In this document: one piece after another, positions 58,971 through 60,057 of the stretch
Layout: each line of letters begins with the position of its first letter
Numbering within the stretch: position 1 is the stretch's first letter
NCBI GenBank assembly: GCA_015056175.1
Contig: SVGT01000003.1
Coordinates: 1-64,000 of the forward strand
From: Clostridiales bacterium
Lineage (GTDB): Bacteria > Bacillota > Clostridia > Christensenellales > Aristaeellaceae
Length of the DNA stretch: 64,000 nucleotides
Direction: 5' to 3'
The notes under the pieces: generated by a model
Seen by the model: only the letters and a program-made list of their open reading frames with translations
Database searches by the model: none
Told to the model about the DNA's origin: nothing
Translations under genes and position numbers: made by a program

Positions 58971-59360
58971 TTATTTTTCGGTAAAGAATTCCACTTCTTC
59001 GCCGGCGGCGCCCAGGCAGAAAGCCACGCGCACGGGATAGCCGTCCGCCGTGGGGATGACCACGTCCGCAGGCTCGCGGATGATCTCAAAGCCCTCCGCG
59101 CGCACCTTGGCGACCAATTCGTCCACGTTATCCGTGGCAAAGGCCACGTGCAGCAGTTGGCCCTGGGGCATTCTTTCCGTGCCGTTGGAGAAAATTTCCA
59201 TGCAGCCGGCGCCGGTGGACAGCATAATGCTCTGGGCGTCGCCGCCGCCCCAGCGCTTGTATTCCTCAAGGCCCAAAAGATCGCGGTAAAAATGGACGGC
59301 TTTTTCGTATTCGGCAACGCCGCAGCAGCGCAGCGCAATGTGGTGGATCCCGGTGATCAT
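58971..59360 (-). CDS. VOC/glyoxalase-family protein
   Basis: 129 aa from the ATG at 59360 (MITGIHHIALRCCGVAEYEKAVHFYRDLLGLEEYKRWG), with AAGGAGGAAAC upstream. Metal-binding positions of a glyoxalase I fold are seen in IHHIAL, GQLLHVAFATDNVDELVAKV and EVEFF. Paired beta-alpha-beta-beta-beta units in a single domain. Exact reaction (lactoylglutathione lyase, epimerase or dioxygenase type) not readable. The gene is convergent with the inserted cassette. Confidence 0.88.
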   Translation of the reverse strand: MITGIHHIALRCCGVAEYEKAVHFYRDLLGLEEYKRWGGGDAQSIMLSTGAGCMEIFSNGTERMPQGQLLHVAFATDNVDELVAKVRAEGFEIIREPADVVIPTADGYPVRVAFCLGAAGEEVEFFTEK

Positions 59361-59449
59361 GGGTGTTTCCTCCTTATGTGGTTGATATCTGCTGCTATTA
59401 TAGCACAGACCCCGCATCCTGCAAACAGTACGTTTGATTTTTTCCGCAA

Positions 59450-59480
59450 AGCAAAACGCCCTCTCCGGAGAAAGGGCGTT
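59450..59480 (-). terminator. Terminator after zinc-ribbon gene
   Basis: Minus strand AACGCCCT-loop-AGGGCGTT followed by TTGCTTTG. Confidence 0.7.
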
Positions 59481-59499: not shown

Positions 59500-59781
59500 T
59501 TACTTGCGCTGCATGGCCGCGTAGCATTCGCTGCAATACACGGGACGGTCTTCGCGGGGCTGGAAGGGCACCTTGGTGGCGGCGCCGCAGTTCGCGCAGA
59601 TAGCGTCGTGCATTTCGCGGACAGTGCCGTTGTTACGCGCAGCCTTGTGAGCCTGACGGCAGTCACGGCAGCGGGTGGGTTCGTTCTGGAAGCCCTTTTC
59701 GGCGTAGAATTCCTGCTCACCGGCGGAGAACACAAATTCCTTGCCGCAGTCACGGCACACCAGCGTCTTGTCCTGATACAT
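59500..59781 (-). CDS. Zinc-ribbon protein with four CxxC motifs
   Basis: 93 aa. MYQDKTLVCRDCGKEFVFSAGEQEFYAEKGFQNEPTRCRDCRQAHKAARN matches the zf-trcl probable zinc-binding domain, followed by a second pair in ICANCGAATKVPFQPREDRPVYCSECY. Binds two zinc ions by inference; function unknown. Very basic, so nucleic-acid or ribosome contact is possible. Its ribosome binding site (CAGGGGG) directly follows a structured RNA in the same transcript. Confidence 0.9.
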   Translation of the reverse strand: MYQDKTLVCRDCGKEFVFSAGEQEFYAEKGFQNEPTRCRDCRQAHKAARNNGTVREMHDAICANCGAATKVPFQPREDRPVYCSECYAAMQRK

Positions 59782-59810
59782 GGTCTAAATCCCCCTGAGA
59801 TGAATGATGT

Positions 59811-60024
59811 TTGGTTTGAAGGGCTGACCTGGTCTTTGACCCCACACTCGCCGGCAGGAGGTTTGCTCATAGCGCATTGGCGCTCCCACTCTGCTCTCTC
59901 GCGTTTACACGCGGCCGGACTTACTTCTAAGCCGCACCATGCTCCCCGGCGCTTTGGCCGGATTACGTGGACCGTTTTGCCTGCGACTGGCATCGGCTTT
60001 CAACCACAGACCCGCTTCAACCAA
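59811..60024 (-). ncRNA. Structured ncRNA or leader, raiA-motif-like candidate
   Basis: About 214 nt between a promoter and the zinc-ribbon gene. Its two ends pair: TTGGTTGAAG at the 5' end with CTTCAAACCAA at the 3' end, and GGGTCT with AGACC. Inside are CCGGC-caaagc-GCCGG, GCGT-GTAA-ACGC (GNRA loop) and GCGC-caat-GCGC hairpins. No reading frame is credible. Size and place recall the raiA RNA motif of Firmicutes, known from memory only; 6S RNA or a new class are alternatives. Could be a stand-alone RNA processed from the mRNA or a cis-regulatory leader. Confidence 0.6.
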
Positions 60025-60029
60025 CGATT

Positions 60030-60057
60030 ATTATAACACTTTACATTTTTCTTGCAA
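60030..60057 (-). promoter_or_regulatory. Promoter of the structured RNA
   Basis: Minus strand TTGCAA, 16-bp spacer, TATAAT; predicted start near 60023, exactly at the first paired base. Confidence 0.7.

Follow-up and report, generated by a model that had tools for sequence, protein, structure and literature searches.

To our knowledge no molecular job has been settled for the raiA RNA, despite a high-resolution structure, its abundance, and phenotypes in sporulation and growth transition, and we know of no specific ligand for it. Rfam files the class, RF03072, under the type 'Cis-reg; riboswitch'. According to one recent study, the class displays an rRNA-like abundance and high stability, its C. 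difficile representative ModT acts in trans on the stationary-phase transition and on sporulation, and probing of ModT has given first hints of protein association (PMC11706538). The genes comFC (74%) and raiA (66%) are frequent but not defining neighbours, and the genes flanking the RNA differ among lineages (PMC11706538).

The window, i.e., the whole stretch of 64,000 nucleotides that was analysed, contains one RNA of this class. The segment 59811-60024 encodes a canonical, full-length raiA RNA; the class is known, while the copy in the window is a new member of it. It is the single raiA RNA in the genome (60 contigs).

A full-length raiA RNA

An Rfam search of the window matched RF03072 at 59816-60020 on the minus strand, over the complete model (positions 1-209), with a score of 177.1 bits (E 6e-45), which is 76 bits above the curated cut-off of 101.3 bits. 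UUGG/CCAA pairs lengthen P1 past the Rfam model, out to 60024 and 59811. The parts of the RNA are as follows:

59811..60024, minus strand: raiA RNA (ModT), full length; Rfam model 59816-60020 plus UUGG/CCAA in P1
60015..60024, minus strand: P1, 5' strand UUGGUUGAAG, pairing with 59811-59821
59971..59997, minus strand: P3 hairpin, outer pairs GCCG/CGGU and inner pairs GCC/GGC, fitting the published P3
59982-59988, minus strand: P3 loop AGUCGCA, 5' partner in pseudoknot pk-1
59945..59962, minus strand: P5 hairpin UCCGGC/GCCGGG, double changes in six of six pairs
59930..59936, minus strand: UGCGGCU, 3' partner in pk-1, forming a 7-bp pseudoknot with the P3 loop
59900..59918, minus strand: P6 5' strand CCGGC and P7 hairpin with a GUAA (GNRA) loop, from the covariation alignment
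59858..59896, minus strand: P8 arm, from the Rfam alignment and covariation
59851-59855, minus strand: closing strand of P6, GCCGG, pairing with CCGGC
59811..59821, minus strand: P1, 3' strand CUUCAAACCAA, from the covariation alignment and the sequence

The secondary structure of RF03072 (P1, P3, and P4-P8) is thus present in the window RNA, and the decisive evidence for it is covariation, which was counted in 40 aligned homologues over 57 pairs that follow the Rfam model and the published account of the cryo-EM structure. Paired cells make up 85.2% versus 76.5% in shuffles and 31-43% when the structure is slid along the alignment, a control that flatters the structure because it was drawn on the window sequence. 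Double changes are less affected by this; 247 were observed against 100 expected, spread over 30 pairs. The covariation score is 0.298 versus 0.137 in shuffles, and none of 500 shuffles reached the observed pairing and covariation values. The seven pairs of pk-1, which connect the P3 loop to the P5-P6 junction as in the published cryo-EM structure, are formed in 97.5% of the cells, with double changes at three pairs including the exchanges U-G/C-G/A-U and A-U/G-C. Only 46-50% of the cells are paired in P7 and P8a, which align poorly because the arm lengths vary among the homologues. The folding energy does not differ significantly from that of shuffles (z = -0.96), and energy alone would not have revealed the RNA.

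The preliminary description had taken 59811-60024 for a structured RNA with ends that close on each other and at least three internal hairpins including one with a GNRA loop, and the Rfam match, the covariation, the extended P1, and the hairpins P5, P7 (GUAA), and P8 bear this out. It had left the choice between a raiA-motif-type RNA and an undescribed class to an Rfam search and a covariation analysis. The whole-model match well above the cut-off, the published helices with their pseudoknot, and pairs that covary across the 40 homologues beyond all shuffles settle this for the former, and the match to RF03072 led to rejection of the undescribed class for the window. Its statement that the segment holds no reading frame needs an adjustment, as a frame of 168 codons opens at 59993 within the RNA, on its strand, and extends far enough to overlap with the zinc-finger gene. 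This frame is judged to be due to chance, since the relatives show stops in most frames and the RNA lengths vary freely, and a coding frame through the RNA was rejected on these grounds. Two further Rfam families with hits at the locus, BSR0626 and sR23, scored far under their cut-offs and were dismissed as chance.

The zinc-finger gene and its leader

The RNA is flanked by the following elements:

60030..60057, minus strand: sigma-70 type promoter, from a promoter scan; relatives have a similar -10 position
60057-60052, minus strand: -35 TTGCAA, 16-nt spacer to the -10 TATAAT
60038-60030, minus strand: extended -10 TGTTATAAT, with TG before TATAAT
59790..59796, minus strand: Shine-Dalgarno sequence AGGGGGA, separated from the start codon by 8 nt
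59500..59781, minus strand: gene for a 93-aa zinc-finger protein, zf_Tbcl (PF13451) plus zf_Tbcl_2 (PF23477, TIGR04272)
59455..59480, minus strand: terminator-like hairpin, AACGCCC/GGGCGTT, followed by a short T-rich stretch; read from the sequence

The promoter at 60057-60030 has 10 of 12 matches to the consensus, and the region holds two promoter-like sites compared with 0.4 expected in shuffles. Transcription would be expected to start at about 60022-60025. A -10 box had been described earlier as ending exactly where the pairing begins; the box is there, but it ends at 60030, six bases ahead of 60024.

That the RNA lies upstream of a zinc-ribbon gene was seen correctly in the preliminary description: zf_Tbcl starts 29 nt past the RNA, and this gap carries AGGGGGA. 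A terminator scan of the window found no terminator between the RNA and the gene, while the hairpin at 59455..59480, directly 3' of the gene, was missed by the simple scan. Another promoter-like site with an extended -10 is seen at 59397-59425 (minus strand), just upstream of a glyoxalase-family gene (approximately 58971-59360), which is therefore probably a separate unit.

The protein is a double treble-clef, with zf_Tbcl_2 of the form CxxC-x17-CxxC. A search of solved structures gave just weak zinc-finger look-alikes, and a literature search by the Pfam and NCBIfam names of the family returned nothing relevant. The genome has a second zf_Tbcl gene, on another contig (C5) and unlinked to the RNA. 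At L143, L150, L175, L184, L186, L123, and other loci, zf_Tbcl carries ahead of its start codon a motif like CAAAGTGAGGGG that exceeds an ordinary Shine-Dalgarno sequence in length. The motif is seen whether or not the lineage has the RNA, and it could be a binding site. At L150, L184, and L186, where zf_Tbcl occurs without raiA RNA, a short hairpin is found between the promoter and the Shine-Dalgarno sequence.

Conserved gene order and reduced RNAs

The RNA was found in 68 of 200 sampled genomes of the order, and in 44 of these zf_Tbcl follows on the same strand, with its domain beginning 35-57 nt downstream; the gene itself starts roughly 30-50 nt past the RNA. This link is present in 10 of 13 families; the window's own family has it in 12 of 12 RNA-bearing genomes, while the families f31, f21, and f17 (23 genomes) have it in none. 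The RNA and zf_Tbcl co-occur in the order with p = 1.9e-17, a value uncorrected for shared ancestry. RF03072 matches were found in 35 of 300 genomes in a phylum sample, with the link in 24 of the 35 (15 of 26 above the cut-off and nine of nine below it). A search seeded with the protein identified raiA RNA, recognised by its end motifs, upstream of 49 of the nearest 80 relatives. Of the 22 stand-alone RNAs, 16 are followed by terminator-like U-runs, which occur in seven of the 44 linked gaps (p = 1.5e-5), as judged by a lenient scan in which six more linked hits inside the gene were left out.

Loci with mixed gene orders are also found, namely comFC-RNA-zf at L006, L021, and L022 and RNA-zf-raiA at L130, where comFC and raiA were called by eye from sequence motifs. 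The tie to a four-CxxC protein had been regarded as a clue to function. The adjacency is indeed conserved and non-random, but zf_Tbcl is far more widespread than the RNA (200 of the 300 phylum genomes versus 35), and the RNA also occurs without a detectable zf_Tbcl in well-assembled genomes such as G031, which is a single contig, and G238. Genomes holding one without the other rule out an obligate partnership.

The nine phylum matches below the cut-off were all upstream of zf_Tbcl, and eight of them were just 113-120 nt. A model of the reduced RNA was built from five of these sequences and used to search one class (26 species); the same 26 genomes were recovered with a second genome as the search centre. 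This gave 19 reduced RNAs in two families of the class, all before zf_Tbcl and about 100-125 nt long, i.e., about half of full length. They are found at loci L187-L205, at approximately 1501-1625 in each, and those that were searched with Rfam scored below its cut-off. Three other species of the class retain the RNA at full length in this position, ahead of the same gene; for one of these (L208) the link comes from the phylum analysis, as the script had overlooked the gene. The reduced RNA keeps P1, P3, and a GCCG/CGGC pseudoknot and has lost the P6-P8 region, and it has gained a closing helix of 5-7 bp, CCCTC/GAGGG in one family and CCCAG/TTGGG or CTGGG in the other. All 19 species share one 20-mer and one 15-mer of its core without a mismatch, whereas identity between the two families is 48.7% at third codon positions of the neighbouring gene, which points to purifying selection and not decay. 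The reduced RNAs thus show which parts are kept by selection (P1, P3, and the pseudoknot) and which are dispensable (P6-P8). It is conceivable, if rather doubtful, that the raiA RNA and the two-domain zf_Tbcl constitute an old functional unit in which P1, P3, and pk-1 are the essential part of the RNA. That all 19 precede zf_Tbcl could alternatively mean a mainly cis role where the RNA and the gene are so arranged.

In a further species of the same families (L176) the core is gone and the outer stem alone is left. The zf_Tbcl leaders at L149 and L176 appear as remnants of raiA RNA, with an outer stem TTGCTTAG/CTAAGCAA or GGCATTCTAA/TTAGGAATGCC and an altered or lost core. Stand-alone raiA RNAs with a shortened P8 arm and a core span of 151-179 nt are found at L119, L120, L134, and L139 and make up a further size class.

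Possible roles of the RNA and comparison with known systems

The locus has one promoter, the RNA, no terminator, a Shine-Dalgarno sequence, and then zf_Tbcl, and this order is conserved across many Clostridia. The explanation that we find reasonably probable is that a trans-acting raiA RNA doubles as the 5' leader of the zf_Tbcl mRNA and is not a riboswitch. As the RNA precedes the gene with no terminator in between, the two are probably cotranscribed as a leader-plus-mRNA unit. Like ModT in C. difficile, for which action in trans is reported, the compact RNA would exert its effect mainly in trans; processing or early termination of transcription might release it, or else it might stay on the mRNA as a stabilising leader. 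The remaining transcript would be translated into the zinc-finger protein, and the 5' RNA may stabilise this mRNA and couple its level to the growth-phase pattern of the RNA. If the RNA is as abundant here as elsewhere, this would imply either a very abundant zinc-finger mRNA or an unseen 3' end; no site of processing was found. This explanation is favoured because the partnership is non-obligatory both ways, and RNAs found without the gene, as in G031, indicate that the core function is independent of it.

A cis-acting leader or riboswitch, in which the RNA would regulate zf_Tbcl at the level of translation or termination in response to something such as a metal, the growth state, or the zinc-finger protein, would fit the position directly ahead of the Shine-Dalgarno sequence, the conserved short spacing, the reduced RNAs that are invariably upstream of zf_Tbcl, and the type label in Rfam. 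We nevertheless consider it improbable, and a ligand-sensing riboswitch in the window is unlikely. The gap, in the window as well as in the relatives, has no riboswitch expression platform in the form of a terminator or a conserved element masking the Shine-Dalgarno sequence, and the relatives have no conserved switch-like element there; their gaps hold the Shine-Dalgarno sequence. A CCUCC in the window RNA complements AGGGGGA, but an anti-Shine-Dalgarno switch was dropped because CCUCC is unconserved among the 40 homologues. Stand-alone copies, furthermore, have no gene to control, and action in trans is reported for C. difficile (PMC11706538).

The zinc-finger protein might alternatively bind the raiA RNA, with the adjacency serving to match their amounts. 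The genomic coupling is strong, the linked genes are of the two-domain form in 89 of 89 cases while none of seven sampled single-domain genes is linked, and the linked state follows the protein tree, changing 10 times versus 51 for shuffled labels; the first hints of protein association from ModT probing point the same way (PMC11706538). Such a pair is hard to reconcile with G031 and G238 and with the distributions in the phylum, where neither partner needs the other, and it is given little credence. That zf_Tbcl is a neutral neighbour, read by functionally meaningless run-through, is very improbable, as order and spacing are conserved over about ten families per sample together with terminator loss, and the link persists where half of the RNA is gone, even though the surroundings of raiA RNAs are lineage-variable (PMC11706538) and some families lack the link.

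The conserved and apparently cotranscribed gene is a concrete, testable partner for the raiA RNA. It also suggests that neighbourhood statistics confined to comFC and raiA overlook what is, in several groups of Clostridia, the most frequent gene downstream. No mention of zinc was found in the raiA motif literature searched, a scope that did not extend to the class-defining papers (PNAS 2024; NAR 2017). Within the literature covered, neither the RNA as leader of zf_Tbcl nor its reduced form seems to have been described, and these two papers may already note the link.

Like other members of RF03072 the window RNA has P1, P3-P8, the 7-bp pk-1, and the conserved ends GGUCUGUGGUUGAAAG and GACCAGGUCAG, while its P1 extends further than in the Rfam model. 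Unlike typical members it is followed by zf_Tbcl and not by raiA, and it has no terminator of its own. Its neighbours are zf_Tbcl and unrelated genes, with comFC and raiA absent, and the only raiA/HPF match of the genome is on another contig. The stand-alone arrangement comFC - raiA RNA - raiA, as at L119 and L120, contains the same RNA class, but there the RNA mostly runs out into a U-run or a terminator, and no zinc-finger gene adjoins it. The window RNA resembles riboswitch 5' leaders in being a structured RNA between a promoter and a Shine-Dalgarno sequence; it differs from them in that no expression platform is seen and in belonging to a class whose action is in trans and which is also found with no target downstream.
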